From Planctomycetota bacterium (GTDB lineage: Bacteria > Planctomycetota > JAJSAM01 > JAJVHW01): a stretch of 35,166 nt of DNA. A program made the translations under genes and the position numbers. The notes below the pieces were generated by a model that was not told the DNA's origin, did no database searches, and saw only the letters and a program-made list of their open reading frames with translations. The number at the start of each line of letters is the position of its first letter. The first letter of the stretch is position 1. Below, one piece after another: positions 804 through 26,946 of the stretch. Location of the stretch: NCBI GenBank assembly GCA_022072415.1, contig JAJVHW010000173.1, positions 1-35,166 of the forward strand. The letters are read 5' to 3'.

Positions 804-847
804 GCCTGACCCTTGTCGCCGGTCCCGTCCCCGGGATAGAAGGGGGC

Positions 848-2716: not shown

Positions 2717-2727
2717 GGAGGACGACG

Positions 2728-4590: not shown

Positions 4591-4604
4591 ACGGGAGAGA
4601 GACG

Positions 4605-9356: not shown

Positions 9357-9669
9357 GCCCGGCATCGTAGGGCGTCGTCCCGAAACACGTGACTCACTTG
9401 GCCGCGATTCGGGGAGGGGGCTGCAGAGCGGGCGGCAGGACGCGACTTCGTCAGCGGGTCCCGGGCCGGGCTCGCGGTCGTCGATCGCGAGGCGGAGACG
9501 CGCGGTGGGCGTCGCGGCGGAGGCTGCGTCCATGCCCGCGGCCGCAGGAACCCCCGGCGACCGGCAGGCTCCCGGCAGCAGGAATCGCGCCGTCGCCCCC
9601 TCCCGGCGCGGCGAGGTGCTGTAGCCTCGCTGCGGCGCGCCCAGCAGAACCTGGAGGGAGGTCCAGAAC
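9357..9669. other. Intergenic stretch, no gene seen
   Basis: 313 bp between the divergent small membrane protein and the SBBP gene. It holds one copy of a dispersed 34-bp repeat (9374-9407) and, at its right end, a GGAGGGAGG ribosome-binding site for the gene at 9670. I see no credible coding frame and no clear promoter motif, though both flanking genes must start here. Confidence 0.6.
9374..9407 (+). repeat. Dispersed 34-bp repeat, copy A
   Basis: 28 of 34 bases match 11806-11839 (shared GTCGTCCCGAA, GTGAC and GGCCGCGA blocks). It lies just upstream of the membrane protein gene at 8964-9356. Origin unknown; possibly element ends or a regulatory site. Confidence 0.5.
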
Positions 9670-12086: not shown

Positions 12087-12488
12087 TCAGTAGTTCTGGA
12101 GGATCAGCCCGCACGACACGTCGAACGTGCACCAGAGCGCCGAGCACAGGATGAGCCCCACCGCCATGCCCTTCATCTGCTTCGACTTCCAGAGCCACCG
12201 GCCGAGGAACGCCGCGAGCACGAGCTGGACGATCCCCGCCGCCAGCACGCCGATCCATTCGCTCCCCTGCGCGACCATGGTCATGCCGTACAGCACGGCG
12301 AGGAACAGGCCGAGCCCTCCGACGAACGCCGCTCCCGCGCCGAGCATGAATCCCGCGACGCGCACCCCGGCGGTCGCGTTCGCGGCGTCGGGGAGGACGC
12401 GGTCCACGTAGGGCTTCGGGTCCGGCGGCCGGCCCGGCGCAGGTTCCGGGACGTGCGAGCGGCCCGGATCTCCCTCGGGGCGGGTCAT
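12087..12488 (-). CDS. Small membrane protein at the end of the cytochrome/radical SAM gene string
   Basis: 133 residues. ATG 12488 overlaps the stop of the radical SAM gene by 4 bp (ATGA), so it is the last gene of that string. It is a paralogue of the protein at 8964-9356, sharing the VLPDAANATAGVRVAGF segment, WIGVLAAG, LGRWLWKSKQMKG and LWCTFDVSCG. Hydrophobic segments at about 48-75, 80-97 and 105-128 indicate three membrane helices. A pair of Cys (LWC...SCG) near the C-terminus is conserved between the two copies. No known family; it may be a membrane partner of the upstream radical SAM or Lgt-like protein. The function is not inferable from sequence alone. Confidence 0.85.
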   Translation of the reverse strand: MTRPEGDPGRSHVPEPAPGRPPDPKPYVDRVLPDAANATAGVRVAGFMLGAGAAFVGGLGLFLAVLYGMTMVAQGSEWIGVLAAGIVQLVLAAFLGRWLWKSKQMKGMAVGLILCSALWCTFDVSCGLILQNY

Positions 12489-13906
12489 GTGCGCACCTCC
12501 GCCCGCAGCGGCGCGAGGCGGGTCCGCTCGAGGTCGTCGCGGTAGAAGAGGTTGTACGTGTCGAACGGGATGAGGCGCCCGTCGTCGGGGTGCACGATGT
12601 GGATGCAGGACTTCTTCACCGACCGCACGTCGAAGCCGTGGGCGTCCATGAACTGGACGATGAGCACGCGGAAGACGTTCTCGTAGGTGAGCGCGCCGCC
12701 CTGACGCAAGCTGATCCGCGGCAGGCAGCAGAGGAGGTCCCGGAGCGCCCCGGCGCCGGACTCGGGCGAGTGGTTCGTGGCGAACGCGCGGAAGATCGCG
12801 TCGCGGAGGCCCGGGTCCTTCTCGTAGACGATCGTGTTCCGCGCGCCGCCGAGGAGGATCTGCGGGTCGACGAGGCCCGTGAGCGGCTTCACGGCGCCGC
12901 CGATCTTCAGCGCGTAGCCCATCGCCAGGCAGTCGGGGTGGCACGGCACGGGGATGATGTCGGACTCGCCGAACACCTGCGACTGCGCGAGGATCCGCCG
13001 CCGCACGCCCGTCAGCGTGAGGCGGTCCCGCGCCGGGTCGAACCCCTCGTTCCGCCCCGCGTCCTGCACCGGCTGGAAGGTCACGCCGCGGACGCACCGG
13101 AACGAGAGCGCATGGTCGATGATCCGCCCGAGCTCGCCGTCGTTGACGCCGTTCATCACGGTCACGACGAGGGTCGTCGAGATCCCGAGTTCCTCGAGCC
13201 GCGCCAGCGCCGCGTCGCGGACGGGGCGGAGGTCGGCGCCGCGGAGCCGCATCAGCGGCTCGCGCTCGAGCGAGTCGAACTGGAGATAGACCTCGAAGCC
13301 CGCGCGGTGCTCCGCGAGGCGCGCGGCGAACGCAGGGTCCTTCGCGATGCGGATCCCGTTCGTGTTCACCATGAGGTGCCGGATCGGGCGCCGCCGCGCG
13401 GCGGCGAGGATCTCGAAGAACTCGGGGTGCAGCGTCGGCTCGCCGCCCGAGATCTGCACGACGTCGGGCTCGCCCTCGTTGGCGACGACGGCGTCGAGCA
13501 TGCGCTCGACCTGCGCGAGCGGACGCATCCGGTTCCGGTGCGGACCGCTCGCCGCGTAGCAGACGGGGCACGCGAGATTGCAGTCGTCGCAGATCTCCAC
13601 GATCGAGAGACACGAGTGCTGCTCGTGGTCGGGGCAGAGCCCGCAGTCGTACGGGCACCCCCACCGGACCGGCGTGTTCCACCGCTTCGGCATCTCCGGC
13701 GGCTTCAGGAAGTCCTCGCGCCCGCGGCGGTAGAACGCCGCATCGTCGGCGATCAGCACCGTGCGCCAGCCGTGCTCGGCGCAGCGCTTCCGCAAGAAGA
13801 CCTTCCCGTCCTCGATCAGGATCTTCCCGTCGGCGCGGCGGAAGCAGACGTCGCAGATCGAGACCGCGAGGTCGTAGTAGAGGTAGGGCCGCTCGCCGCC
13901 GCTCAT
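12485..13906 (-). CDS. Radical SAM enzyme of the Tes / MJ0619-like type
   Basis: 473 residues, ATG 13906 overlapping the upstream stop by 4 bp. N-terminal CDVC (18-21) with CAEHG (Cys42) resembles the rubredoxin-like metal site of the archaeal tetraether synthase Tes. It is followed by the family-typical Cys string CPYDCGLCPDHEQHSC (84-99) and then the radical SAM CX3CX2C motif CNLACPVC (109-116). ISGGEPTLHPE is the GGE motif that holds SAM. Further Cys residues (PVPCHPDC, LLCC) could bind extra clusters. Relatives include Tes (C-C coupling of lipid tails), the MJ0619 C-methylase and bacterial proteins proposed to make membrane-spanning lipids. The adjacent Lgt-like gene fits a lipid-directed substrate, but the reaction here is inferred from family only. 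Confidence 0.85.
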   Translation of the reverse strand: MSGGERPYLYYDLAVSICDVCFRRADGKILIEDGKVFLRKRCAEHGWRTVLIADDAAFYRRGREDFLKPPEMPKRWNTPVRWGCPYDCGLCPDHEQHSCLSIVEICDDCNLACPVCYAASGPHRNRMRPLAQVERMLDAVVANEGEPDVVQISGGEPTLHPEFFEILAAARRRPIRHLMVNTNGIRIAKDPAFAARLAEHRAGFEVYLQFDSLEREPLMRLRGADLRPVRDAALARLEELGISTTLVVTVMNGVNDGELGRIIDHALSFRCVRGVTFQPVQDAGRNEGFDPARDRLTLTGVRRRILAQSQVFGESDIIPVPCHPDCLAMGYALKIGGAVKPLTGLVDPQILLGGARNTIVYEKDPGLRDAIFRAFATNHSPESGAGALRDLLCCLPRISLRQGGALTYENVFRVLIVQFMDAHGFDVRSVKKSCIHIVHPDDGRLIPFDTYNLFYRDDLERTRLAPLRAEVRT

Positions 13907-14634
13907 CGGGGGGATGCTCGCATGCGGTCCTGCCGCCGCTCCCACGCGATCCACGCGAGCCCGAGGACGCACGTCCACTGGATCGCGGAGAGCCCGAACA
14001 CCGGGCCGCGGGGCTTCAGGAAGTCCACGGCGAGCCGCCACGCGAGGTACGCCGCCACCACCGCGCGGAACACGGACCCCTCGCGGCCCGGAGCGGCCCG
14101 GCGGAGCGCGAACGGGAGGAGCGCAAGGCAGAACGCCGTCTCGTAGAGCTGCGCGGGATGCCGCGGGCCGTCGCCGAAGTCCACGCCCCACGGAAGCGAC
14201 GTCGGGAGGCCCGTCGTGCGGTCGCGGAGCCCTTCGAGGAAGCATCCGACGCGGCCGACCGCGATCCCGACGAGGAGCGGCGCGGCGAACAGGTCCCCGG
14301 TGCGCGCGCGCAGGTCCGCCATGCGCTTCGCCGCCTCGACCCCGATCCATCCGCCGAGGATCCCGCCCACGATGGACTTCGCCCCGAGAATCGTGCGGAG
14401 GTCCGTGCTCCCCTCCCCGAGCCGCTCGAGCGCGCCGGTGATGCGCGACCCGAACACCGCCCCCGCCGCGGCGCCGGCGACGACGAGCCAGCGATGCGTC
14501 GTGTCGAGCGAGTCGCCGCGCCGGCGGCGGAGGACGTGGAAGACGATCCCTGCGAGGGTGTAGCCGGCCGCCTCCAGCACCGCGTGCGCGGAGACGTCGC
14601 GTCCGAGCAGGCGGAAGACGACGGGGAAGTCCAC
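13903..14634 (-). CDS. Diverged Lgt-like (prolipoprotein diacylglyceryl transferase family) membrane protein
   Basis: 243 residues from a GTG at 14634, 4 bp after the stop of the 15-heme gene; its own stop overlaps the radical SAM start. Multiple hydrophobic segments and the Lgt signature region are visible: VGRVGCFLEGL aligns with Lgt GRxGNFxNGE, and RHPAQLYE with the Lgt RHPxQLYE. Two residues considered important in canonical Lgt are changed: the Asn after GRxG is Cys, and the HGG motif appears as VGG (SIVGGILGGWIGVE). It is also short for Lgt. I infer a lipid-handling membrane enzyme that has left the lipoprotein role, working with the neighbouring radical SAM protein. A genuine lipoprotein transferase is the alternative, which would suit the lipoproteins nearby. 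Confidence 0.8.
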   Translation of the reverse strand: MDFPVVFRLLGRDVSAHAVLEAAGYTLAGIVFHVLRRRRGDSLDTTHRWLVVAGAAAGAVFGSRITGALERLGEGSTDLRTILGAKSIVGGILGGWIGVEAAKRMADLRARTGDLFAAPLLVGIAVGRVGCFLEGLRDRTTGLPTSLPWGVDFGDGPRHPAQLYETAFCLALLPFALRRAAPGREGSVFRAVVAAYLAWRLAVDFLKPRGPVFGLSAIQWTCVLGLAWIAWERRQDRMRASPR

Positions 14635-14638
14635 TCCG

Positions 14639-16744
14639 CTACCGGTGGAACCGCTCGCGGACGTGGCACTCGAGGCAGCCGCGCTCGGCGGCGCCGGGCA
14701 GCGGCACGTCGAGGACCCGCGTCGCGCGGTCGATCGACGCGGCGTCGTGGCACGGGACGCAGGTCCGCTCGCCCGACGCGCCGGACGGCTCCGCGTGCCC
14801 GTCGCTGAAGTGGCGGAAGGACTCGATCGGCGCGACGGTCTTCCGCGCCGCCTTCGGCGACGCGGCGTCGAAGATGCCCGTCTCGAGCGTGCGGTACACG
14901 AGCTTCCCGTCGCGCGTGTTCGCCGGCGACGCGCGATCCACGTGGCAGAGCACGCACTTCCCCTCGCCGAGGCTCTCGTGCCCCGCGTGGCATGCCGAGC
15001 AGTCGGAAACGCCCGCGCGGAGCGTCATCGGCGCCGCGCCCGCCGCGGGGACGTGGCAGGAGAGGCAGCCCTGCGCGAGGGCGCCGCGGCTCGCCACGGC
15101 GCGCATCGCCGCGCGGCCGGTCTGCACGCCGGGCTCCACCGTGTGGACGAGGTGGAACATGTCGGTGACCGTGCGCGTCCTCCCGTCGGCCGCCGCCACC
15201 GGCACGGGGTCGCCGTCGGTGTGGCAGGTGCCGCACGTCGCCGTCGAGACGTCCGCCCGCGGCAGCGCGCCGCCGAGCCCCGCGAGCGACCGGCTCTCCG
15301 CCACGCCCTTGTGGCACGGGACGCACGACGCCGAGAGGTCGGCCTCGCCGCCCTTCGGCGGAGTCACGCTGCGCACGTGGTGGTCGTGACGGAACGCGAG
15401 GACCCGCGGTTCGCCGGACGGCGCATGCTGCGCGCCGGAGACGTGGCACGAGCGGCAGTCGTCCTTCGCGAGGTCGTGCTTCCGCGGCGGGAGCCGGTAG
15501 AGCGAGCCCGACGCGGGGACCTCGACCGTGCGGATCGTCCGCGTGATCTTCCCGGGGCTCGCGGCCTTCGCGTGGCACTGGAGGCAGTGGACGCCGTCCT
15601 CGTCCCGGCCGTGGACGTCCACCCGCCACTCCGCGTGGCACTTGAGGCAGGTCTCGTACGCGACGGCGGCGAAGTCCCCCTGCGGCTCGGCCGGGTCCTT
15701 CACGTGGCACTCGCCGCACGCGAGCGGGACGGATCCCTCCGGCGGCTTCGACGACACCGACGCGCCGACGCGCCGCTCCTTCGCGATCCGGTGGTCCGCG
15801 TGCGAAAAGCCGTCCACCTGGAGCGTGCGGGCCCGCGGCGGGGACGCGACGTCGCGGATACTCGCCGGAAGCGCCGGGTTCGAGACGGCGGCCGTCACCT
15901 TCGCCTCGCGGTCCTCTCCGGCGTGGCAGAGCGCGCACGTCTTCGGCCAGCCGTCGGCGCCCGTCTCCATCGAGGGGACGATGTCGGCCTTCGCGCCGGC
16001 GTGGTCGGTGTGGCACGCGGCGCACGAGAACTCGTCCGTCTTCGCGTACGGGTGCCGGTCCGCGGACGCGTACCCCTCGTGGCACTTCGCGCACTTCGGC
16101 GTGTAGTCCGACGAGAAGGGGTCGTGGCACGACGCGCAGGAGTCGGGGTGCGTCTTCCCGTCGGCGCGCGGCGCGCCGATCGCGTGCACGTCGCGGAGTT
16201 CGCCGCGGGACAGCACGTCGCTCTGCGTGAGCCCGAAGAACGCCGCGCAGCCCGCGAGCCCGAGGAGCGCGGCGATCCAGTTCCAGCGCGAGAGGACGGC
16301 CGACTTCCCCCAGCGGTGCTCCTGCGGCCCGGAGTCCGCGAGCGCGAACTCCTTCCCGAGCTTCTTCGCGGCCTCGGCCACCGTCTTCCCGAGGTATCCC
16401 TCGCCGACCACGAGCCCGCACTCGCCCTTCGCCTCGTCGATCGACACCTCGACGAGCACCTGCCCCGTCTGCACGGTGGACCCGTGGTGCACCGGGCCGC
16501 GGGTTCCGGCCGCGAGTGGGCGCCCGTCCACGAACACGCCGGCGAGCGGGGTCAGCACCTCGACCTCGAGCCGCTTCCCGTCGAAGGTGAAGGCGAGCGC
16601 CTCCTGGGCGACCATGCGGTCGTTCACGAAGAGGTCGGCGAGGGGCCGCGAACCGAGCACCACGCGCATCGCGTCCACCGCCGACGCCGGACGGGCCCGG
16701 TTGGGCTTCTTGTCGAGCTTCCACTCGAGGAGGAAGCGGCTCAT
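14639..16744 (-). CDS. Transmembrane FHA-like / 15-heme cytochrome c fusion
   Basis: 701 residues. ATG 16744 overlaps the upstream stop (ATGA). Residues ~26-101 form an FHA-like beta domain (VVLGSRPLADLFVNDRMVAQ, then FVDGRPLAAG and GSTVQTGQ), followed by a ~45-residue linker and a single membrane helix (WIAALLGLAGCAAFFGL, ~156-172). Basic residues before the helix place the N-terminus in the cytoplasm. The remaining ~520 residues carry 15 CXXCH motifs, from CASCH (203) and CAKCH to CVPCH and CLECH near the C-terminus, so this part is periplasmic. The FHA-like part lacks the textbook SxxH and NG residues and may not bind phosphothreonine. The architecture allows a cytoplasmic contact or signal to touch a periplasmic heme wire directly. 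Probable partner of the ferredoxin-like protein encoded just upstream. Confidence 0.88.
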   Translation of the reverse strand: MSRFLLEWKLDKKPNRARPASAVDAMRVVLGSRPLADLFVNDRMVAQEALAFTFDGKRLEVEVLTPLAGVFVDGRPLAAGTRGPVHHGSTVQTGQVLVEVSIDEAKGECGLVVGEGYLGKTVAEAAKKLGKEFALADSGPQEHRWGKSAVLSRWNWIAALLGLAGCAAFFGLTQSDVLSRGELRDVHAIGAPRADGKTHPDSCASCHDPFSSDYTPKCAKCHEGYASADRHPYAKTDEFSCAACHTDHAGAKADIVPSMETGADGWPKTCALCHAGEDREAKVTAAVSNPALPASIRDVASPPRARTLQVDGFSHADHRIAKERRVGASVSSKPPEGSVPLACGECHVKDPAEPQGDFAAVAYETCLKCHAEWRVDVHGRDEDGVHCLQCHAKAASPGKITRTIRTVEVPASGSLYRLPPRKHDLAKDDCRSCHVSGAQHAPSGEPRVLAFRHDHHVRSVTPPKGGEADLSASCVPCHKGVAESRSLAGLGGALPRADVSTATCGTCHTDGDPVPVAAADGRTRTVTDMFHLVHTVEPGVQTGRAAMRAVASRGALAQGCLSCHVPAAGAAPMTLRAGVSDCSACHAGHESLGEGKCVLCHVDRASPANTRDGKLVYRTLETGIFDAASPKAARKTVAPIESFRHFSDGHAEPSGASGERTCVPCHDAASIDRATRVLDVPLPGAAERGCLECHVRERFHR

Positions 16745-18570
16745 CCCTTCCCTCCGAGGAGCACTTCGGGGTCGATCCGCTCGATGGCGCCGCACGGGCA
16801 GTTGTAGATGCACGCCATGTCGCCGCGCCCCGCGCAGAGATCGCACTTCACGGCGAGCGCCTTCGCGCCCTTCTCCTCCTTCGCGGGGGCGGCGCCCGCC
16901 GCGTCCGGAACGACCGGGAGCCGCTTCTTCGGCGCGAACCACTTCCCGATCACGGGCATCGTCGAGAGGAGCTGCTGCATCGGCGTCGCGACGACCTTCG
17001 CGCTCGACTCCCCGATCAGCGACTGCATGTGGATCGTGCCGTAGGGGCACGCGGGCTCGCAGAGCGAGCAGCCGGTGCACGCCTCGGGGTCGATGTTCAC
17101 CCGGCCGCGGCGGTCGCGGCGGATCGCGCCGAACTTGCACGCGAGCATGCAGTCCGGGACGCGGCAGTTGTAGCAGGACGACGTGAGGAGGAGGTCGCCG
17201 TAGGCGAGTCCGCGCTTCCCGATGCGCGGGATCCGGTCCTCGTGCGCCTCGATGCAGCCCGTCACGCACATGTTGCAGCGCGTGCACTTGCTCATGTCGA
17301 TCACGAGGGCCTCGCCGGCCTTCACGACCTCGTGCTCCGTGCCGAGCTCCTTCGCGCGTTCGCGGGCCTCGATCTCCTCCGCGGTGAGGTGCTCGTCCTC
17401 GAAGATCCGCTGCACGCGCTCGAGGACGGTCTGCTTCACGTCCGGGTGCTCGTCCATGAGCTTCCGGAACGGCTCCTTCGGGATCCGCACGAGGTCCATC
17501 CGGTCCACGGCCGAAACCGTGGATCCGCGGGGCTTGTCCGTGAGGAGCGCGACCTCGCCGAAGAAGCTGTTCTCGCAGACCCACGCGAGGATGTCCTCGC
17601 GCGCGCCGCTCTTCCGCCACACCTTCGCGTGGCCGGTGCGGACGAGGTAGAACGCGTCGCCGGGCTCGCCCTCGCGGATCACGTCGGAGCCCTTCTCGGC
17701 GACCACCAGCTCCGCCACCTCGGAGATGCGCTTCAGCACCTTCTCCTTGATGCCGCGGAAGAGCGACACGCCCGCGAGGTGGTTCACGAGGGCGCGGTCG
17801 CGGTAGAGGTCGTCGATCGTCTTCTTGAACGCGGCGCTGCCCTTGTCGGAGTAGAGCCGCATGAACGTGTGGCGCGGGACGGAGAGCACGACGGCCTCGG
17901 ACTCCGCGATCACCGTCGCCGCGCGGGGCGCGCTCGACATGCAGCTCATCTCGCCGAACCACGATCCGGCGGTGAGCGACGTCAGGTACTTCGTGCCTTC
18001 CTGGCTCGCCTTGTAGACGCCGACCATCCCCGCGAGGATCACGAAGAAGTCCGCCGTGTACTCGCCCTCGCGGCAGATCTGCGCCTTCGGTGCGAGGGCG
18101 CGGAACTGGACCGTGCCTTCCTGGAGCCCCTCGCGGATGAACTTGAACGCGGTCGCGCTCACGCCCTTGAAGAGCGCGAGTTGCGCGACCTGTCCCTCGG
18201 GCGAGTTCGGATCGAGCGCGGGAGCGGGGGGAGCGGCAGGAGCGGCCGCCGCAGGAGGAGAGCCGGCGGCCGGGGCCGGCACAGCGCCCGGCGCGCGCGG
18301 CGCGGCCGGTGCCTTCGGCGGAGACGGGGACGCGGGCGCGGGCGGCGACGGTGATTTCGGCGCTCCCGGTGGAACGGGAGCGGATGGCGGCTTCGGCGCG
18401 CTCGGCGGGACGGGCGCACTCGGCGGTCTGGGCGCTCCGGGCGGTCGGGGCGCACCCGGAGGTTTCGGGACGCCCGGGGGTTTCGGAACGCCCGGCGGCT
18501 TCGGAGGCACGGGGGCTCCGCCCGCGTCCGCGGGTCCGGGTGCGTCGCCAGGCGTGCCGTCGTCGCTCAT
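16741..18570 (-). CDS. Double cyclic-nucleotide-binding domain fused to a four-cluster ferredoxin domain
   Basis: 609 residues, ATG 18570 overlapping the upstream stop as TGATG. Residues 20-118 are a Pro-rich linker. Two CRP-like cNMP-binding domains follow (~130-250 and ~268-385). Both keep the phosphate-binding cassette: FGEMSCMSSAPRAATV (Arg216) and FGEVALLTDKPRGSTV (Arg348). The C-terminal part is a DmsB/NrfC-like ferredoxin with 16 Cys in four groups: CTRCNMCVTGC (429-439), CYNCRVPDCMLAC (466-478), CTGCSLCEPAC (498-508) and CDLCAGRGDMACIYNC (576-591), fitting four [4Fe-4S] clusters. There is no signal or Tat peptide and no DNA-binding helix-turn-helix, so it is cytoplasmic and not a transcription factor. 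Likely role: an electron-transfer subunit whose activity or docking responds to cyclic nucleotide made by the nearby cyclase. Confidence 0.9.
   Translation of the reverse strand: MSDDGTPGDAPGPADAGGAPVPPKPPGVPKPPGVPKPPGAPRPPGAPRPPSAPVPPSAPKPPSAPVPPGAPKSPSPPAPASPSPPKAPAAPRAPGAVPAPAAGSPPAAAAPAAPPAPALDPNSPEGQVAQLALFKGVSATAFKFIREGLQEGTVQFRALAPKAQICREGEYTADFFVILAGMVGVYKASQEGTKYLTSLTAGSWFGEMSCMSSAPRAATVIAESEAVVLSVPRHTFMRLYSDKGSAAFKKTIDDLYRDRALVNHLAGVSLFRGIKEKVLKRISEVAELVVAEKGSDVIREGEPGDAFYLVRTGHAKVWRKSGAREDILAWVCENSFFGEVALLTDKPRGSTVSAVDRMDLVRIPKEPFRKLMDEHPDVKQTVLERVQRIFEDEHLTAEEIEARERAKELGTEHEVVKAGEALVIDMSKCTRCNMCVTGCIEAHEDRIPRIGKRGLAYGDLLLTSSCYNCRVPDCMLACKFGAIRRDRRGRVNIDPEACTGCSLCEPACPYGTIHMQSLIGESSAKVVATPMQQLLSTMPVIGKWFAPKKRLPVVPDAAGAAPAKEEKGAKALAVKCDLCAGRGDMACIYNCPCGAIERIDPEVLLGGKG
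18216..18513 (-). repeat. Pro-rich coding repeat (PPG/PPS-A/V-P units)
   Basis: Encodes about 100 residues of five- to six-residue units such as KPPGVP, RPPGAP and PPSAP, grading into Ala/Pro sequence. It forms an extended tether in front of the cNMP-binding domains. Degenerate repeats of this kind can slip in replication, so length may vary between strains. Confidence 0.75.
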
Positions 18571-19628
18571 CAGTACCAGAGCACCATCCACACGTGGATC
18601 AGGATCACGAAGAGGAGGAACACCGAGACGGGGACGTGGATCCACCGCCAGAGCTTCAGGTGGAAGTCGAGCCGCCGCGCGTCGCGCGTGTTCCAGATCA
18701 AGTGGTCGCGCGTTCCGGCCATCACGACGAGGTCCCGCGCCGCCTCGATCTGCGCCGGGTGCGCGACGGCCACGCGGCCGAGGGCGGCGTCCACGGCCGA
18801 GCGGAGCGCTGCCGGCGAGTCCGCGCCGCGGAGCGCAGGGGCGATCTCCGCCCGGACGGCAGGCTCGAACGACGCGAGCATCGCGGCGAGCGACGCCTCG
18901 TAGTGCTCGCGGGCCACGCCCGCCTCCTCGAACGGGATCTCCGGGCCGGCCGCGGCGAGCTTCGCGGGGAGCGTGCGGTAGAGCAGCGCGCCGAGCACGC
19001 CGGTGAGGAGCACCACCGCGGTCCCCGCGAAGAGCAGCCAGCCGACGGCGTGCCGGGGCAGACCGTCTCCGTGGAACCACACGCCGACGCACGCGGCGAC
19101 GCCCACGCCCATGTGCATCTCGAGCCACGGCTCGAGCCGCCCGAGGGGCTCGCGCTTCCGCAGCACGACGTGCTTCACGCGGACGCCGCCGACGCTCGTC
19201 TCGTCGATCTCCGCCCGCTGCGCGCCGTCCACCTGGAGCCGGACGAGGATCTCGTCCGCCGCCGCGAGGATCTCGCGGTCCGACGAGAACGCGTTCTGCC
19301 GCACGCGGCGGTTGAGCGCCTGGACCTCGGCCCAAGCGGCGTCGCCCGCGCCCTTCGGAGTCCGTCCGAGATCGCGGAACCACGCGAGCTTCACCGACCA
19401 CTTGCGGAGGACGAAGAGCAGCGTCAGCACGAACAGCGCGAGGACGACGTTCCCCGACCAGAGGAACCACGAACGCTCGTGCGCGGGGATCCCCCGGGCG
19501 GCCGACGTCGCGAGCACCCACGCCGCGATCCCCGGGCCGAGCGTGAGCGCGAGCCAGAGCCACGCGCCCGGCCGTCCGAGGAATCGCACGGCGAAGCGGC
19601 GGTCCTTCAGAGCGACGGCGCGGCTCAC
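18570..19628 (-). CDS. b-type membrane cytochrome of the multiheme complex
   Basis: 352 residues. The GTG at 19628 overlaps the upstream TGA (GTGA). About five membrane segments: WLWLALTLGPGIAAWVLA, WSGNVVLALFVLTLLFVL, HMGVGVAACVGVWF, VGWLLFAGTAVVLLTGVL and WIHVPVSVFLLFVILIHVWM. Histidines fall at heme-b spacings within helices: LEMH...WFH (14 apart) and WIH...LIH (14 apart), a pattern seen in diheme b cytochromes such as the b561/NarI-like group. A ~90-residue soluble domain sits between helices 2 and 3 and another between helices 4 and 5. Presumed role: the quinone-reactive membrane anchor linking cytoplasmic Fe-S and periplasmic c-heme subunits encoded on either side. No family member is recognised with certainty. 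Confidence 0.8.
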   Translation of the reverse strand: MSRAVALKDRRFAVRFLGRPGAWLWLALTLGPGIAAWVLATSAARGIPAHERSWFLWSGNVVLALFVLTLLFVLRKWSVKLAWFRDLGRTPKGAGDAAWAEVQALNRRVRQNAFSSDREILAAADEILVRLQVDGAQRAEIDETSVGGVRVKHVVLRKREPLGRLEPWLEMHMGVGVAACVGVWFHGDGLPRHAVGWLLFAGTAVVLLTGVLGALLYRTLPAKLAAAGPEIPFEEAGVAREHYEASLAAMLASFEPAVRAEIAPALRGADSPAALRSAVDAALGRVAVAHPAQIEAARDLVVMAGTRDHLIWNTRDARRLDFHLKLWRWIHVPVSVFLLFVILIHVWMVLWY

Positions 19629-21670
19629 TTCCGGCGCTCCAGCGCGCGGAGGTAACCGCGCGGCTCGTTCACGTGGCACTTCCGGCAGGACGCGGGTCCG
19701 CCGGACGGATCGTTGAACCACTGCCCCGCCAGCGCGGGGTCGTCGTGGACCGACACGCCGAGCTTCGCCTTCGGCATCCGCACTTGGTACGGGACCTGCG
19801 CCGCGCCGTCGCGCGCGTGGCAGTCGGCGCAGGCGCCGGACATGTCGTGGTGCTGGACTCCCGGGAGGAGCGAGAGGTGCGTCCTCGGCGGGATCGCGGC
19901 CCGCGCGGCGCCCGGTTCGTCGTGGCACGCGGCGCACTTCGCGGCGTCGCCCGCTTCGCGCGTCTTCTTCCCGGTGCGCGCGTACTTGTCGGCCTGCGCC
20001 TCGTCGTGGGAGTGGCAGCGGACGCAGGTGAGGGCGTCCGGCGCGGTCCCGTATCCGTGCGGCCCGCCGGGCGCGTGGCACTCCGTGCAGGCGATGCCCT
20101 TCCCGCCCTTCCAGACGGCGCCGACCACGTGGCTCCTGTGGTCGAACTCCGGGACGTCGCGCGTCGCGCGGTCGATGCCGAGATCCTCGGGCTTCGCGCC
20201 GACGTGGCAGTCGAGGCACGCCCGGGCGCCGCGGGCCTCCGCGTCGGCGGAGAGCACGCCGCCGAGGTGGGCGTCGAAGCGGCGCATGAACGCGCTCCAC
20301 TGCGACTCCGCCGCGGTCGAGTGGCAGACGAGGCAGTCGGCGGGCTTCGGGTCCGCGGGAAGGTGCGGCGCGTGCGCGAAGGGCTTCCCGGCGGAACGGG
20401 CGGCGAGGGCGGGGACGTCGGCCTTGTGGCAGTCGCTGCAGGGCTTCGTGCCGTCCGCCGCGCCTTCGATCCGGGCGCCGGACGACGTCACGACCGGGTG
20501 CGCGTGCGCCGCGGCGCGGAACCCGCCGGGCATCGACTCCCGCGTCACGCGGGACGTCGCCATCGCGAGGGAGCCGTCGGCGCCCGTCGCGCCGCCGTGG
20601 CACTTGAAGCAGGACCATGCGCCCACGCCGTGGCCTGCGACCTTCCACGCCTCGTGGCACGGAAGGCACGTGTCGTAGTCCACGAGCGACGCGCGCCCGA
20701 CCGGCTCGGCCGACGTCGCGCGCGACGCGAACGCCTTCCCCGCCCCGTCCTTCGCCTGCTCCGGGTAGTGGCACGTGCGGCACGCGTCGCCGACGGCGGC
20801 CGACGTCTCGATCTTCCCCGTCTTCGGCGCGAGGTGTTTCCCGTGCGGGAAGTTCGAGAACTGCACGAACGCGGGCTGCGTGACGACCGGCGGATCGCCC
20901 ACCCCCGCGAGCGGCTTCCCCGCGGCGTCGCGATGGCAGTCCGCGCACGCGGCCGCGGTGCCGGCGACGGGGTCGTGGTCCCAGATCGTCGCGCTCGCCG
21001 CGATGCCGGCGTGGCACGACTCGCACGCGCCCTGCGCGCCTCCGTGGTCCGCGTGGCGGAACGGCCCGCGCGTCGCGGACGGCGGCGACGGCACGATCGC
21101 AGCCGCGCCCTGGTGGCACGTCGAGCACGTCCGCCCGTCGCCGGTCACGTCGTCCTGCCGGACCTTCCCGCCCGACGGCTCGTGCGTCCGGTGGCAGTCC
21201 GCGCACGACGCCTCGCCGGACGGTCCGCGCCGCGACAGACCGGCGGCCGGCATCGAGAAGGCGATCCAGTCGCGCTCCTTCACGGGCTTGTGGCAGGAGA
21301 AGCACGTCGTCTTCGGATCGCGCAGGTGCTCGGCGTGCGTGAACGGCTTCGCGCCGGGACGTCGCGGCGCCACGGTCGTCGCGAGGTGCTTCTCGCCGAT
21401 GTGGCACTGCTCGCAGCCGGCGAGGTGCGCGTCGGGCCCCTTCGCGTAGTCGTGGCAGGTGCGGCACTCGCGGTCGCTCCCGCCGGAGAGGGCGGCGTCC
21501 ACGGCGCCCTGCGAGAGGTGCGGACCGTGCGGGAAGTGGTCGATCGACGCGCCGTAGTCGCCCCGGTCCTCCGCGAGTCCCTCGGGCGGCGCGACGAGCG
21601 CGGACGCTGCGAGGGCGAGGACGGCCGCGACCGCGGCGGCACCGGCCCAGGCGTCCCTCGCACGTCCCAT
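19625..21670 (-). CDS. Periplasmic 18-heme c-type cytochrome
   Basis: 681 residues. ATG 21670 with GAGGTGG upstream is preferred over a GTG ten codons earlier (21700). The N-terminal hydrophobic stretch (AGAAAVAAVLALAASALVA) is a signal peptide or anchor, with a likely cleavage near GLAED; there is no lipobox. I count 18 CXXCH motifs, from CRTCH, CEQCH and CFSCH through to CAACH, CADCH and CRKCH, spread evenly over the whole mature protein. Many extra His residues (HFPHGPH, HAEHL, HRSH) could serve as distal ligands. No catalytic domain is recognised, so it is most likely an electron wire or store in the periplasm. The stop overlaps the b-cytochrome start, and it lies 38 bp after the FHA gene. 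Confidence 0.9.
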   Translation of the reverse strand: MGRARDAWAGAAAVAAVLALAASALVAPPEGLAEDRGDYGASIDHFPHGPHLSQGAVDAALSGGSDRECRTCHDYAKGPDAHLAGCEQCHIGEKHLATTVAPRRPGAKPFTHAEHLRDPKTTCFSCHKPVKERDWIAFSMPAAGLSRRGPSGEASCADCHRTHEPSGGKVRQDDVTGDGRTCSTCHQGAAAIVPSPPSATRGPFRHADHGGAQGACESCHAGIAASATIWDHDPVAGTAAACADCHRDAAGKPLAGVGDPPVVTQPAFVQFSNFPHGKHLAPKTGKIETSAAVGDACRTCHYPEQAKDGAGKAFASRATSAEPVGRASLVDYDTCLPCHEAWKVAGHGVGAWSCFKCHGGATGADGSLAMATSRVTRESMPGGFRAAAHAHPVVTSSGARIEGAADGTKPCSDCHKADVPALAARSAGKPFAHAPHLPADPKPADCLVCHSTAAESQWSAFMRRFDAHLGGVLSADAEARGARACLDCHVGAKPEDLGIDRATRDVPEFDHRSHVVGAVWKGGKGIACTECHAPGGPHGYGTAPDALTCVRCHSHDEAQADKYARTGKKTREAGDAAKCAACHDEPGAARAAIPPRTHLSLLPGVQHHDMSGACADCHARDGAAQVPYQVRMPKAKLGVSVHDDPALAGQWFNDPSGGPASCRKCHVNEPRGYLRALERRK

Positions 21671-21708
21671 CCGTCCACCTCGCCGCGCGCGACGCGGCAC
21701 CGACCGGA

Positions 21709-22749
21709 TCACTTCGCCCCGAACAGGCCCGACCTCCACGCCACGAACGCCGCGGCGGCGAGCGCGACGAGCGCGACGATCCAGCCGGTCTTCGAGGCCC
21801 CGCCGCCGCCGGCCGCCGGCGCGGCGCTCCCGAGCGTGCGGAGGAGTTCCCGCTGCTTCCAGAGGTCGGCCCACTCCTTCGGCGTGAAGACGCCGCGCTC
21901 GACGAGCACCTCGCCGAGGGTGCGCCCGCTCGCCCGGTGCTCGGCGACCGCGTCCCGCGCCTGCTGCTGCGTGGCCTTCCCGAGCCGCACCGCGTGGTCC
22001 GCGAGCACGTCGGAGATCGGGTCCCCCGCGCCGACGGCGCCGGTCGTCTCCGGCGGACGCGCGACGAAGAGGCACTCGACCGTGCCGAGGGTGACGGCCG
22101 ACTGCGGCGGCAGCGGCGACTCGCCGGAGATCCGGATCCCGTCGAGGAAGGTCCCGTTGGCCGAGCCGAGGTCCGAGATCTGGAACTGCCCGTCGGCGAA
22201 CCGGATCTTCGCGTGCCTCGACGAGACGGACTGGTGGTCCACGACGACCTTCGCGTCGGCGGACGACCGTCCGACCACCGACTCGAGCTCCTCGAGTGCG
22301 ACGACCTTCCGCCCGTGCTCGAGCGCCACCACGAGCCGCGGCTTCGCCGCCTGGAAGCGCGCGATGTTCACGAGCACGGACTGCATCGAGTTCCCGGTGA
22401 TCGCGACGGTCTTCTCCGTCTTCGCGAACCCGCTGTCCGACGACTCCGGCCCGCCGGACGAGACGATCTCCAGGATCGCCGGCCCGGCGAGGATCTGCTG
22501 CCCGGGCCGGATCTCGAAGTCGCGGTCGGCCTCGATCCGGTCCCCGGCGCCGATTCGCGTGCCGTTGGTCGAGCCGAGGTCGCGGAGGACCGCACCGTCG
22601 TCCCCGGGGCGGAGCGAGAGGTGGCGGGAGGAGATCTGGCCGTCGGCCACGACGAGGTCGGCGGGCGCCTTCCGTCCGAGCACGAGCTCCCGGTCGAGCA
22701 GGACCTCGTGGGCGACTCTCCCGTCTACGGTGACTCTCACCTTGTGCAT
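21709..22749 (-). CDS. Tail-anchored protein with two FHA domains and an MshEN-like helical domain
   Basis: 346 residues from ATG 22749 (in-frame ATGs at 22797 and 22806 would add 16-19 unlikely residues). FHA domain 1 (~1-95) has LGRKAPADLVV, SSRHLSL and DLGSTNGTRI. FHA domain 2 (~138-230) has VVGRSSADAKVVVD, SSRHAKI and DLGSANGTFL; both keep the Arg, Ser, His and Asn-Gly residues that bind phosphothreonine. Residues ~244-303 resemble the helical MshEN/GspE N-terminal module (GRTLGEVLVERGVFTPKEW). A C-terminal helix (WIVALVALAAAAFVAW, ~323-338) anchors it with the FHA domains in the cytoplasm. As first gene of the cytochrome string it is a candidate scaffold or regulator recruiting phosphorylated partners to the complex. 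The kinase is not in the window. Confidence 0.85.
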   Translation of the reverse strand: MHKVRVTVDGRVAHEVLLDRELVLGRKAPADLVVADGQISSRHLSLRPGDDGAVLRDLGSTNGTRIGAGDRIEADRDFEIRPGQQILAGPAILEIVSSGGPESSDSGFAKTEKTVAITGNSMQSVLVNIARFQAAKPRLVVALEHGRKVVALEELESVVGRSSADAKVVVDHQSVSSRHAKIRFADGQFQISDLGSANGTFLDGIRISGESPLPPQSAVTLGTVECLFVARPPETTGAVGAGDPISDVLADHAVRLGKATQQQARDAVAEHRASGRTLGEVLVERGVFTPKEWADLWKQRELLRTLGSAAPAAGGGGASKTGWIVALVALAAAAFVAWRSGLFGAK

Positions 22750-22886
22750 GCTGTGCGGGCCGTCCTGTCCGTGCCGTGGATGGATGTTCGCGCGCATTGT
22801 CGCCACGCCCGCGGAGGCGGCAAGACCTATCCCCGTCGCCGCGCCGCGCTTGCAATCCGCACCGCGACTGTATCCTCGGGCTCCTC
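22750..22886. promoter_or_regulatory. Divergent promoter region between the cytochrome string and the cyclase
   Basis: 137 bp between two divergent starts, so it must drive the 8-gene minus-strand string and the cyclase/phosphodiesterase pair. On the plus strand TTGCAA (22850-22855) and TATCCT (22871-22876) resemble a -35/-10 pair but with a 15-bp spacer, shorter than usual. No obvious CRP-like palindrome is seen. The location is well supported; the motif calls are weak. Confidence 0.45.
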
Positions 22887-24809
22887 GTGACAGCCCGCAT
22901 CAAGATCACCGGATCCGGCACGGAGCCCAAGGTCCTCGAACTCGACCGCGAGATCATCGTGGGCCGGTCCGTGAAGTCGGACATCCAGATCGAGGGCGAC
23001 CTCGTGTCGCGCCAGCACTGCCGCATCTGGCAGGACGGCGGCCGCTGGCGGTTCCAGGACCTCCAGAGCCGGAACGGGCTGCTCCACAACGGCGAGCGCG
23101 CGACCGAGGGGTGGCTCCGCAACGGCGACGTGCTGATGATCGGCTACGGGAAGCTCGAGTTCGTCATCGACGAGCCGGACCGGGACTCCGACCTCGAGGT
23201 GAGCTTCGTGGACGCGCCCCTCGCGCACGATTCGGCGATCATGGCCGACGCCGAGGAGCAGTCCGGCGCCACCATGGCGCTCAGCTACCGCGACCTGGTC
23301 CTCGTCAACCAGCGGATCTCGACCATCGCCCGCGTCTTCCAGCAGCTCGCGACGATCCTCGACCGCGACCAGCTCCTCCGCGAGGTGCTTTCGACCCTCT
23401 TCGAGCTCTACCCCCAGGCCGATCGCGGCGCCGTGGTGCTCCGCGACCGGTCCGACGCGTTCCGTGTGGCCGCCACGCACACGCGCCAGGGGCAGGGCGC
23501 GACGACGTCGGTGATGAACATCTCCACCGGGCTCATCGGGCTCGTCCGGAAGGAGAAGAAGGCCGTGCTCTCCGCCGACACGGGCTCCGACGCGCGGTTC
23601 CAGGACCGCCAGAGCATCGTGAGCAGCGGCGGTCGGTCGGTCATGTGCGCCCCGCTCCTCCGCGAGCAGGAGTTCCTCGGCGTCGTCTACCTCGACACGG
23701 AGTCCCTCGCGCAGCCCTTCACGCCGAACGACCTGAACCTGATGCAGGGCGTGGCCGGGCCGGTCGCGGTGGCGGTGAAGAACGCGGAGCTCGTGTCGCG
23801 GATCGAGTCGGAGACGACGCTCCGGACCAGCCTGTCCCGCTACCTCTCTCCCGACGTCGTCCGGCAGATCGGCGAGGGCGCGCTCAAGCCGAACCTCGGC
23901 GGCGACCAGGTCGAGGGCACCGTGATGTTCAGCGACATCGTGGGCTTCACCGCGATGTCCGAGCGGCTCCAGGCCACGGAGGTGGTCGCGCGCCTCAACC
24001 GCTACTTCACGCAGATGCTCGAGGCGATCTTCGGGTGGAACGGCACGGTGGACAAGTTCGGCGGCGACGCCATCATGGCCGTGTGGGGCGCCCCCGTGGC
24101 GTCGGCGGAGCACGCGAACCTCGCGGCCTGCGGCGCGCTCGAGATGCAGCAGCGGCTCTTCGACCTCAACTGCGCGTTCGAGGAGGCGGGCGAGAACCGG
24201 ATCGGGATGGCGCTCGGGCTCAACTCGGGGAAGTTCGTGGCCGGGAACATCGGCGGCGCGGACCGGATCGAGTGGACCGTGATCGGCGACAACGTGAACC
24301 TCGCCCAGCGCGTCGAGTCCCAGGGCTTCCGCGGCTGCGTGCTCTGCTCCGAGGCGACGTTCGCGCAGGTGCCCGCCGCGGGGGCGTACCGATTCGAGCC
24401 GGTCGCCGTGAAGAACAAGACCCTGCCGGTGACGATCTACTCCGTCCGCGCCGTCCGGTCCGGACGCGGCGCCGCGTGCTCGATCCCCGGGGAGCTCAAG
24501 GCGGACTCCGGCGCGTGGCGCGCGCTGCTCGTGAAGGCGACGCCGCGCACGGGCGGCACCCGCGTCACGATCTACGCCGACGGGACGCCGAAGATCGGGG
24601 AGAAGGCGGAGTTCACCGCCGCGCTCCCCGAGCGTCCGGAGCCGTTCCGGCTCTCCGGCAAGGTCGCCGCCGTGGCGCCGCTCATCGAGTCGAAGAAGGC
24701 GCGGTCGGTGGATGTGGACGCGGAGTCGATGGACCCGGAGATGAAGCGACTGCTCGACGCCGCCGGCGCCGCGCCCGCTCCGCTCCGCCTGGACCAGATC
24801 GAGAGGTAG
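22887..24809 (+). CDS. FHA-GAF class III adenylate/guanylate cyclase
   Basis: 640 residues from GTG 22887, which places the FHA domain at the very N-terminus; no Shine-Dalgarno site is evident. FHA (~1-95): VGRSVKSDIQI, SRQHCRI, LQSRNGLL. GAF (~150-300): ends with LGVVYLDTES and FTPNDLNLM, typical of cyclase-linked GAF domains. Class III cyclase (~341-521): metal Asp350 (MFSDIVGFT) and Asp394 (KFGGDAIMAVWG), base-selecting Lys390, and transition-state Asn471 and Arg475 (TVIGDNVNLAQR), all present, so it should be active; Lys390 with Thr464 favours ATP over GTP. The C-terminal ~115 residues form an unassigned domain, possibly PilZ-like. Soluble. Divergent from the cytochrome string and followed by a phosphodiesterase, so it probably feeds the cNMP-binding ferredoxin protein. 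Confidence 0.92.
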   Translation: MTARIKITGSGTEPKVLELDREIIVGRSVKSDIQIEGDLVSRQHCRIWQDGGRWRFQDLQSRNGLLHNGERATEGWLRNGDVLMIGYGKLEFVIDEPDRDSDLEVSFVDAPLAHDSAIMADAEEQSGATMALSYRDLVLVNQRISTIARVFQQLATILDRDQLLREVLSTLFELYPQADRGAVVLRDRSDAFRVAATHTRQGQGATTSVMNISTGLIGLVRKEKKAVLSADTGSDARFQDRQSIVSSGGRSVMCAPLLREQEFLGVVYLDTESLAQPFTPNDLNLMQGVAGPVAVAVKNAELVSRIESETTLRTSLSRYLSPDVVRQIGEGALKPNLGGDQVEGTVMFSDIVGFTAMSERLQATEVVARLNRYFTQMLEAIFGWNGTVDKFGGDAIMAVWGAPVASAEHANLAACGALEMQQRLFDLNCAFEEAGENRIGMALGLNSGKFVAGNIGGADRIEWTVIGDNVNLAQRVESQGFRGCVLCSEATFAQVPAAGAYRFEPVAVKNKTLPVTIYSVRAVRSGRGAACSIPGELKADSGAWRALLVKATPRTGGTRVTIYADGTPKIGEKAEFTAALPERPEPFRLSGKVAAVAPLIESKKARSVDVDAESMDPEMKRLLDAAGAAPAPLRLDQIER

Positions 24810-24816
24810 CCCGGCG

Positions 24817-25590
24817 ATGAGAGTCCGCGTCCTCGGCTGCAGCGGCGGGTGCGCCCCCGGACGGGCCCCGTCCTGCTACATGCTCGACGACGGCATCGTG
24901 GTGGACGCCGGCGCCATGGCGACCGCGCTCACCGTGGAGGAGCAGCAGCAGGTCACGGACGTGCTGCTCACCCACGCCCACTGGGACCACGTGCGGGACC
25001 TGCCCCTCGCGACGATCAACCGCGGCGCGGGCGCGAAGACGCTCCGCCTCCACGGGCTCGCGGAGACGATCCGCGCCGTCCGCACGCACCTCATGAACGG
25101 CGAGGTCTGGTTCCAGGCGTTCGACCTCCCTTCGGCCGACACTCCCTTCGTGTCGGCGAAGACGGTGAAGCCCGGGGACGTGTTCCGCGCGGGCCGGTAC
25201 ACCGTGCACTGCGTCGAGGTCCCGCACACGGTGCCCGCCGTCAGCTACCTCTTCGACGACGGCACGTCGTCGCTGCTCATGAACGCGGACACGGGCGGCG
25301 GGATCGCGGCGGGGCGGCCGAGCATCTTCGCCAACCTGCCGAAATCGTCGCCGCTCCGCGCGGTCTTCCTCGAGGCGTCGTTCCCGAACCGCATGCGCGA
25401 GTTCGCGGTGATGACGGGGCACCTCACGCCCGCCATGCTCGGCGAAGAGGTCGCGTGCCTCCCCCGCGACGTGGACGTGATCGTCACGCACCTGAAGCCC
25501 GGCTTCGAGACCGAGATGGCCCGCGAGATCGCGGATCTCGGCCGCCCGGGCGTCCGCCCGTGCCGGGACGGCGACGTCTTCGAGTGGTAG
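24817..25590 (+). CDS. Class II 3',5'-cyclic-nucleotide phosphodiesterase (metallo-beta-lactamase fold)
   Basis: 257 residues, ATG 24817, 7 bp after the cyclase stop, so cotranscribed. The metal motif THAHWDHVRDL (His53, His55, Asp57, His58) fits the HxHxDH signature of class II PDEs such as CpdP and yeast PDE1. Other family markers are EVPHTVPAVSY, MNADTGGG (metal-bridging Asp), LEASFPNRMREFAVMTGHLTP and THLKPGF, where each His is a likely metal or phosphate ligand. There is no signal peptide, so it is cytoplasmic. It would hydrolyse cAMP (or cGMP) to the 5'-monophosphate, ending the signal made by the upstream cyclase. Other metallo-beta-lactamase hydrolases are the alternative, but the FPN...GHLTP...HLKP series is specific. 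Confidence 0.88.
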   Translation: MRVRVLGCSGGCAPGRAPSCYMLDDGIVVDAGAMATALTVEEQQQVTDVLLTHAHWDHVRDLPLATINRGAGAKTLRLHGLAETIRAVRTHLMNGEVWFQAFDLPSADTPFVSAKTVKPGDVFRAGRYTVHCVEVPHTVPAVSYLFDDGTSSLLMNADTGGGIAAGRPSIFANLPKSSPLRAVFLEASFPNRMREFAVMTGHLTPAMLGEEVACLPRDVDVIVTHLKPGFETEMAREIADLGRPGVRPCRDGDVFEW

Positions 25591-25639: not shown

Positions 25640-26596
25640 ATGAGCCAGCCCTGCGCGTCCACGAGCCTTACACCGAGCCTCACGCCCACCGTCCGCGAGA
25701 TCCTGTCGTGGTACCCCTCCGACACGCCCGGGGTGAAGGCGAACATCGCGCGGCTCCTCATGACGGGCCGCCTCGCCGGCACCGGGAAGCTCGTCATCCT
25801 CCCCGTGGACCAGGGTTTCGAGCACGGCCCCGACCGGAGCTTCGCCCCGAACGCGCCGGGGTACGACCCCGCCTACCACGCCGACCTCGCCGTCGAGGCG
25901 GGCTGCAACGCCTACGCCGCGCCGCTCGGGCAACTCGAGGCCGCGGCGGACCGCCATCCCGGCGTCCTCCCGCTGATCCTCAAGCTCAACAACTCCGACT
26001 CCCTCGGCGGCCCGAAGCAGCCGTGGCCCGCGATCACGGGCTCCGTGAACGACGCGCTCCGCCTCGGCTGCGCGGCCGTGGGGTTCACGATCTACCCGGG
26101 CTCCGACCACCGGAACGAGCAGTACGGCGAGATCCGGGCGATCTCCGAGGAGGCGAAGGCCAAGGGAGTCGCGGTCGTGATGTGGAGCTACCCGCGCGGC
26201 GGCGGGCTCACGAAGGAGGGCGAGACGGCGGTGGACGTGGTCGCCTACGCGGCCCACATCGCCTGCCAGCTCGGCGCGCACGTCGTGAAGGTGAAGCCGC
26301 CGACGGCGCACGTCGCCATCGACGCGAACAAGAAGGTCTACGACAAGCACCCGGCGAAGTTCGACACGCTCGCCGACCGCATCCGCCACGTGGTGCGCGC
26401 GTCGTTCGGCGGGAGGCGGATCGTCGTCTTCTCCGGCGGCGAGGCGAAGGACACGGCCTCGGTGATCGAGGAGGTCCGCGGCATCCACGCCGGCGGTGGC
26501 AACGGCTCGATCGTCGGCCGCAACTCGTTCCAGCGGAAGCGCGAGGACGGCGTCGCCTTGCTCCGGGCGATCATGGACGTCTACGCCGGGAAGTAG
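25640..26596 (+). CDS. fbaB: Class I fructose-bisphosphate aldolase, archaeal (DhnA/FbaB) type
   Basis: 318 residues, ATG 25640 behind GGGGAGGAG. Typical DhnA-family blocks: LVILPVDQGFEHGP, YDPAYHADLAVEAGCNAYAAPLG, GFTIYPGS, VAVVMWSYPRGGG and VVKVKPP, where the last Lys is the expected Schiff-base residue. The C-terminal phosphate-binding part reads VVFSGGEAK and GNGSIVGRNSFQR. It cleaves or forms fructose 1,6-bisphosphate with DHAP and glyceraldehyde 3-phosphate in glycolysis/gluconeogenesis, in the cytoplasm. It stands alone, 49 bp after the phosphodiesterase, and is convergent with a small membrane protein gene. It is distinct from the FbaA class II metalloenzyme; the close relative FSA/LsrF is less likely. 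Confidence 0.93.
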   Translation: MSQPCASTSLTPSLTPTVREILSWYPSDTPGVKANIARLLMTGRLAGTGKLVILPVDQGFEHGPDRSFAPNAPGYDPAYHADLAVEAGCNAYAAPLGQLEAAADRHPGVLPLILKLNNSDSLGGPKQPWPAITGSVNDALRLGCAAVGFTIYPGSDHRNEQYGEIRAISEEAKAKGVAVVMWSYPRGGGLTKEGETAVDVVAYAAHIACQLGAHVVKVKPPTAHVAIDANKKVYDKHPAKFDTLADRIRHVVRASFGGRRIVVFSGGEAKDTASVIEEVRGIHAGGGNGSIVGRNSFQRKREDGVALLRAIMDVYAGK

Positions 26597-26600
26597 CCGG

Positions 26601-26777
26601 TCAGCCCTTCCGCTTGGCGTCGGCGTACGCTTCGAGAGCCTCCCCGACGGAGAGTGTGAGCCGCTCAAGGATGGTCAAGCAGCGCAGGACGATCCAGGCG
26701 TAGAAGAGCGTGGATCCTACGGCGAGGATCCCTACCGCGACACCGATCCACGTCATCCAGGCCTCCATTTCCCGCAT
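26601..26777 (-). CDS. 58-residue single-helix membrane protein
   Basis: A short frame from ATG 26777 to TGA 26603-26601, with a strong GGGAGG site 6 bp upstream. It starts MREMEAWMTW, has one hydrophobic helix (IGVAVGILAVGSTLFYAWIVL) and an amphipathic, charged tail (LERLTLSVGEALEAYADAKRKG). Its stop is 4 bp from the fbaB stop on the other strand. The good ribosome-binding site, the coherent helix and a reading frame in an otherwise empty 350-bp gap support a real gene. No family is recognised. Confidence 0.7.
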   Translation of the reverse strand: MREMEAWMTWIGVAVGILAVGSTLFYAWIVLRCLTILERLTLSVGEALEAYADAKRKG

Positions 26778-26946
26778 CGCGCACCTCCCGCCCGGCGCAC
26801 CTGCCGGGGCGGACGCAGGCTACCACCCCGACCGATCGTTTCGCCGCCCGCCTCGCGGCGACTAACCTCGGCGGGATTGCGCCTGAGGAACCGCCCCGGA
26901 ACGCTCCGGACGGGCTCCGCGGGTCGCAGACGCGGAGGACGAACCG

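Follow-up and report, generated by a model that had tools for sequence, protein, structure and literature searches.

Can a cyclic nucleotide act directly on an electron-transfer complex, instead of through a transcription factor? This question is raised by a 35,166-nucleotide stretch of DNA, contig 24 of the draft Planctomycetota genome G000 (3.86 Mb, 76% complete; hereafter the window), in which a class III nucleotidyl cyclase and a probable phosphodiesterase (PDE) face a string of genes for two multiheme cytochromes, a b-type membrane cytochrome (CYTB), and CNFD, a protein that fuses two cyclic-nucleotide-binding (CNB) domains to a ferredoxin. From sequence comparison we consider it probable (roughly 0.6) that the string encodes a conduit across the membrane resembling PCC4, whose cytoplasmic entry protein, CNFD, would be gated by a 3',5'-cyclic nucleotide. 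PCC3 and PCC4 are predicted extracellular-electron-transfer clusters described in 2017 (PMC5566968). The cyclic-nucleotide control would be the new part, and it is supported by four separate lines of evidence, each imperfect: the phosphate-binding cassettes of CNFD, the linkage to cyclases, the linkage to PDEs, and the covariation of cassettes with cyclases. The string and the divergent genes are arranged as follows.

21709 to 22749, minus strand: protein with two FHA domains (PF00498 twice) and a C-terminal transmembrane (TM) segment, at the head of the string
19625 to 21670, minus strand: 18-heme c-type cytochrome with signal sequence (18 CxxCH; Cytochrome_C7 and Mtrc-MtrF_II-IV by Pfam)
18570 to 19628, minus strand: CYTB, membrane cytochrome b with two hemes (WxxxH-x13-H in each of two helices, and [ST]GxxG)
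16741 to 18570, minus strand: CNFD, 609 aa, with a Pro-rich N-terminus, two CNB domains like those of the PKA regulatory subunit (PKA-R) and a C-terminal four-[4Fe-4S] ferredoxin
17911 to 17967, minus strand: phosphate-binding cassette of CNB-A, GSWFGEMSCMSSAPRAATV, Glu and Arg present (alignment of 79 loci)
17515 to 17571, minus strand: phosphate-binding cassette of CNB-B, NSFFGEVALLTDKPRGSTV, Glu and Arg present (same alignment)
14639 to 16744, minus strand: degenerate FHA, TM segment and 15-heme cytochrome in one protein (15 CxxCH; Pfam)
22750 to 22886: divergent intergenic region between the minus-strand string and the plus-strand cyclase
22887 to 24809, plus strand: FHA-GAF-class III nucleotidyl cyclase with a K/T substrate pair, adenylyl type (PF00211 75.2 bits; FHA, GAF)
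24817 to 25590, plus strand: class II cyclic-nucleotide PDE-like metallo-beta-lactamase protein (PF02112)

All genes that the original prediction had placed here were recovered in the window with the same heme counts (18 and 15), domain content and overlaps, and the divergent region measures exactly 137 bp, as had been said. Overlaps of 1-4 bp join the four core genes (18-heme cytochrome, CYTB, CNFD and the FHA/15-heme protein), and homologues of the 15-heme protein carry a true FHA domain where the window copy has a degenerate one. Absent from that earlier account were the first gene of the string (FHA-FHA-TM, 21709-22749, minus strand), whose product shows in its C-terminal part a weak MshEN-like cyclic di-GMP motif (NF053729, below cut-off), and an operon for a predicted porin and a giant cytochrome at 515-8372.

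The core recurs. When 392 Planctomycetota genomes were searched with a profile, 82 had CNFD-type matches, and 79 CNFD loci from 75 genomes were studied, counting a multiheme cytochrome at six or more hemes and leaving out L064, which matched through its CNBs alone, without ferredoxin. Within 5 kb of CNFD, CYTB was present at 68 of the 79 loci and a multiheme cytochrome at 69. All 72 CNFD genomes of our cyclase table possess CYTB; conversely, among genomes with a strong CYTB, CNFD is missing from G198 only, whose contig ends at CYTB. At one locus (L159, G170:C3:786098-788214) CNFD lies beside CYTB in two broken frames, and an intact second copy (L104) is found elsewhere. Outside the Planctomycetota, where the distribution was taken from a plasmid collection, an operon of Sphingobium encodes a Pyr_redox-CNB-CNB-4x[4Fe-4S] protein, CYTB, an FHA-TM-10-heme cytochrome and a CpdA/SpdA-like metallophosphoesterase. 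The original prediction had been staked on the fusion protein being found near the cytochromes and the cyclase in related genomes, and this held: the fusion regularly adjoins the cytochromes, and a cyclase, at times together with a PDE, recurs next to it in families that are not related to one another.

In CNFD, Pfam recognizes PF00027 twice (135 bits) together with Fer4 families. All 16 ferredoxin cysteines are invariant across 15 diverse homologues (alignment A2), far above chance, which implies four [4Fe-4S] clusters. In a PDB profile search the CNB pair matched best the tandem domains of PKA RI-alpha (E=1.8e-24) and those of PKG, and an AlphaFold model of the CNBs, which scored 70-85, gave the same PKA-R and PKG matches by structure. 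Both window cassettes, FGEMSCMSSAPRAATV and FGEVALLTDKPRGSTV, are canonical PKA-R-like and retain the Glu and the Arg. By Pfam, CNFD contains no DNA-binding or helix-turn-helix (HTH) domain, departing from the CRP/FNR transcription factor layout of a CNB followed by an HTH. It shares with the PKA regulatory subunit and the cGMP-dependent kinase the tandem CNB-A/CNB-B and the E...R cassette, but in place of a kinase its effector is a ferredoxin that belongs to a membrane electron carrier. The mycobacterial acetyltransferase Pat and the K+ channel SthK, both among the family or PDB matches to the CNBs of CNFD, likewise fuse a CNB to an effector that does not bind DNA; the effector class of CNFD is electron transfer. 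To our knowledge, cyclic-nucleotide control of bacterial respiration has been described as transcriptional.

The enzymes that could make and remove the ligand stand opposite the string. Alignment confirmed that the catalytic residues of the cyclase (two metal Asp, Lys, Thr, Asn and Arg) are intact, as had been proposed. For the adjacent gene, the PDE call held in part: it passes the Pfam class II cut-off (PF02112, 44.1 bits against 23.7) and its motif THAHWDH fits HxHxDH, but it passes no NCBIfam cut-off (NF041851 is below cut-off) and shows weak similarity to RNase Z, so that we regard it as a probable, not a certain, PDE.

In f1, the family of the window, a cyclase-PDE-aldolase cluster faces the cytochrome string in 5/5 genomes; in G001 it lies about 8 kb from the string, and G004 has a string spread over contigs and a cyclase (L150:4599-6572) cut by an in-frame stop, from assembly or real. 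Outside f1, a class III cyclase was found within 10 kb of CNFD in 5 of 30 families, against 0.82 expected from the cyclase number and size of each genome (P=8e-4, a value that overstates independence, since f99, f41 and f50 lie next to one another in the CNFD tree); SpoIIE and histidine-kinase matches of the iterative GAF profile (L100, L136) were not counted as cyclases. In f27 the cyclase is divergent from the operon, in eight genomes; in f50 a cyclase-FHA frame ends 4 bp before the CNFD frame; in f99 a cyclase and a class II PDE are both linked to CNFD; and f41 and f60 have a class III cyclase within the same 10 kb. A cyclase of f6, lying 15 bp from a cytochrome gene beside CYTB, falls outside the statistic. 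The cyclases of f99, f41 and f50 differ in architecture despite their proximity in the tree, and the linked cyclases as a whole differ in architecture and subfamily, suggesting repeated recruitment. PDE linkage was seen in f1, in f99 and in Sphingobium, where the enzyme belongs to a different, unrelated class (the CpdA/SpdA-like metallophosphoesterase, with matches below NCBIfam cut-offs).

The fourth line concerns the cassette Arg of CNB-A, compared with cyclase content in the 72 genomes for which cyclase counts were known (phylum baseline: 270 of 392 genomes with a class III cyclase). The Arg is kept in 62 genomes, and all of these but G211, which is 77% complete, encode a class III cyclase (61 genomes); it is lost in 10, eight of which have none. 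A naive Fisher test gives 3e-8 and ignores kinship; an independent-pairs test of Arg loss against cyclase absence had too few pairs for significance. The Glu of the CNB-A cassette stays in the Arg-losing genomes. In the PKA of trypanosomatids the same Arg is lost and a nucleoside is bound instead of cAMP (PMC10959531), a precedent by which a changed ligand is possible in the Arg-less CNFD clade. In place of a fused input module, the Arg-less loci of f32 and f88 have in their CNFD cluster a gene for an FHA-FAD-NAD-[2Fe-2S] reductase (L096:5255-6955, L108:1456-3234); these clusters belong to the Arg-less CNFD clade, most of whose genomes have no cyclase.

Several observations weigh against gating by a cyclic nucleotide, in addition to the tree proximity that affects the linkage statistic. 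No cyclase is nearby in 25 of the 30 families. On the CNFD tree the Arg losses are confined to a single clade, in which f71, with both Arg and cyclases kept, is nested (2 parsimony changes), so that the pattern amounts to 1-3 evolutionary events and is suggestive, not proven; moreover, two of the 10 Arg-losing genomes keep one cyclase. The cassettes of CNB-B are lost in many families in the alignment of CNFD loci. The cyclases of f1 have K/T at the substrate-pair positions, and those of f27 and f99 have D/G in their place, which makes their nucleotide uncertain and perhaps different (linked cyclases with D/G are those of L062, L063, L118, L120-L123 and L116). Finally, the ferredoxin part of the AlphaFold model of CNFD is poor, so that contact between the domains cannot be judged from it. 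Some of these points would also suit a distinctly unlikely alternative, in which the CNBs are scaffolds or sense something else (a nucleoside, heme or redox state), the cyclase and PDE serve an ordinary CRP, and the pathway is a plain PCC4-like one: a linked cyclase is absent from most families, cyclase-poor lineages retain CNBs that lack the Arg, and Arg-less CNBs can, as in trypanosomatids, bind nucleosides. It is opposed by the canonical E/R cassettes where cyclases exist, by cyclase linkage in several lineages, and by a PDE inside the operon in another phylum. Gating by a cyclic nucleotide appears to be the best explanation.

The conduit itself is not new in kind, because CYTB matches the inner-membrane protein (IMP) of PCC3/PCC4 and the window encodes a predicted porin together with a giant decaheme lipoprotein. 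The original prediction knew of no described respiratory complex of this composition; this was not borne out, as CYTB and the cytochromes are of the predicted PCC3/PCC4 kind (PMC5566968). The residues W168, H172, H186, G210, W327, H331 and H345 of CYTB are invariant and G213 is also conserved (16 homologues, alignment A1). Two WX3HX13H motifs with SGXXG are the signature of the IMP, which was likened to the diheme ferric-reductase/NOX/cytochrome b fold (He et al. 2017, PMC5566968); the window CYTB has T in place of the S. CYTB has no Pfam or NCBIfam match of its own, with weak DUF4405, Ferric_reduct and b561 hints alone in Pfam, a PDB profile search gave no meaningful match, and AlphaFold models from four sequences reached pLDDT 60 and pTM 0.37. 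Its identity rests on the four invariant His of the two WxxxH-x13-H motifs.

According to the main text of the 2017 description, in PCC4 subgroup II an Fe-S gene (pfam13247) lies upstream of the IMP, the cytochromes carry 4, 5 and 10 hemes, and Planctomycetes are among the members (PMC5566968); CNFD matches PF13247 at 29.6 bits (cut-off 26.2). The window resembles this subgroup in the IMP with its two motifs and SGXXG, an Fe-S gene beside it, multiheme cytochromes and the phylum, and it encodes a predicted porin. The f27/f18 loci fit it: at L118 the order is 5-heme, 4-heme, CNFD, CYTB, 10-heme, with CNFD upstream of CYTB and the same heme numbers. In the window, however, CNFD adjoins CYTB downstream, the cytochromes have 15 and 18 hemes, and an outer-membrane LVIVD decaheme lipoprotein lies beside the barrel, whereas PCC4 has no extracellular cytochrome (PMC5566968). 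We therefore call it PCC4-like, not PCC4. The window also has a cyclic-nucleotide domain, a cyclase and a PDE, none of which appears in the main text for PCC4; that main text nowhere uses the term 'cyclic nucleotide' (PMC5566968). Compared by parts and motif, PCC3, which consists of a porin, extracellular and periplasmic multiheme cytochromes and a five-helix diheme IMP, is similar, but its main-text parts list has no Fe-S/CNB gene and the heme counts of the window are much higher (PMC5566968). The 515-8372 operon may form the outer-membrane end of the conduit, to judge from linkage and from the signatures of its products.

515 to 2716, plus strand: HbpS-like protein upstream of the barrel (PF03928 60.5 bits)
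2728 to 4590, plus strand: predicted porin-type beta-barrel of the outer membrane, ending in VILTW (phmmer E=1.5e-114 against the L152 protein)
4605 to 8372, plus strand: LVIVD-repeat decaheme cytochrome with lipoprotein signal LASC (PF08309 78 bits, 10 CxxCH)

The predicted barrel is 10 kb from the core genes, and its homologues are linked to the core in relatives; it is related to the barrel beside CNFD in Sphingobium, whose plasmids have the same three-gene order (HbpS-like, barrel, giant cytochrome). Many other Planctomycetota families have homologues of the barrel, the giant cytochrome or both near CNFD or CYTB. A C-terminal aromatic residue ends 9 of 10 barrel homologues, the tenth being truncated by a contig end.

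How would a cyclic nucleotide act on such a conduit? In f48, f51, f6, f50, f69, f99 and f41 the CNBs follow a NuoG-like Fe-S module (Fer2_4, Fer4_Nqo3) on one polypeptide, and the Sphingobium protein has a flavin/NAD(P) module (Pyr_redox) in that place; CNBs set between an input and an output redox module are what a gate would look like. N-terminal NuoG-like [2Fe-2S]/[4Fe-4S] modules were noted in the CNFDs of L104, L056, L055, L099, L116, L058, L059, L051 and L117, some of which have three CNB stretches. In the window, the CNBs are preceded by a flexible Pro-rich N-terminus only, with no fused input module. Such a terminus would also suit a switch of assembly or localisation, in which the nucleotide docks CNFD on CYTB or releases it, FHA contacts hold the complex together and electron transfer is not allosterically altered. 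FHA domains do recur in the cyclase, the FHA-FHA-TM protein, the cytochrome and some CNFD proteins, but by itself this switch, which we hold to be rather unlikely, leaves unexplained why CNBs sit between two redox modules in one chain in seven families and in Sphingobium.

Under allosteric gating, electrons would pass from a cytoplasmic donor (perhaps a ferredoxin in the window, the fused NuoG-like or FAD/NAD(P) module in relatives) to the four-[4Fe-4S] chain of CNFD, then to the two b-hemes of CYTB and so across the inner membrane, and from there through the 15- and 18-heme periplasmic cytochromes to the outer membrane with its predicted porin and giant decaheme lipoprotein; the flow could be outward or the reverse. 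The tandem CNBs would bind cAMP (or cGMP) from the divergent FHA-GAF cyclase, the PDE would remove it, and binding would couple or uncouple the redox modules. Nucleotide binding and its allosteric effect, the identity of the nucleotide, the involvement of quinone that the original prediction proposed, and the direction of flow are what we infer; the parts, motifs, linkage and cassette/cyclase pattern are read from sequence. The same parts list would serve a redox-controlled sink or sensor, in which the state of the clusters sets the affinity of CNFD for the nucleotide and reports the respiratory state to the cyclase/PDE network, and sequence does not give the direction of allostery. We think this very improbable, as the strict association of CNFD with CYTB and with multiheme cytochromes, like the fused input modules, suggests an electron path. 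More generally, and as a tentative proposal, tandem CNBs between Fe-S input and output modules might be a ligand-gated switch by which an extracellular electron conduit is turned on or off; lineages of two phyla would have recruited different cyclases and PDEs for it, and those that lost their cyclases would use another ligand, e.g., a nucleoside. We know of no CNB or cyclase in the Geobacter Cbc-type cytochromes. By their description, these systems (CbcL and relatives) are similar in that a b-type membrane cytochrome feeds multiheme c cytochromes (PMC9129911).

Downstream of the PDE, a DeoC/LacD-family aldolase and a 2-oxoacid:ferredoxin oxidoreductase (alpha and beta) occupy 25640-29876, in an order identical in G001; the donor in the window may be a ferredoxin reduced by this oxidoreductase of the divergent cluster.

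26947 to 28797, plus strand: 2-oxoacid:acceptor oxidoreductase alpha (TIGR03710 567 bits, above cut-off; order kept in G001, L149)

Immediately 3' of the string are genes for a TrsS/tetraether-synthase-like radical SAM protein (12485-13906) and an Lgt-like protein (13903-14634), in an order retained in G001. Two paralogous small membrane proteins (PYVxRVLPxAxNAxAGVRVAGF...) are encoded on the minus strand at about 8964-9400 and at 12087-12485.

A version of the system is present in a named isolate, Sphingobium herbicidovorans MH, which makes the proposal testable. If CNFD is gated, the second messenger would act directly on the electron wire, and the cell could turn its electron exchange with the outside on or off in a matter of seconds. 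This would give a function to CNB domains in these clusters, which are undiscussed in the literature searched, and would provide a naturally occurring module for placing electron transfer under the control of a ligand. It would also explain in part a predicted extracellular-electron-transfer system of the abundant and poorly understood Planctomycetota.

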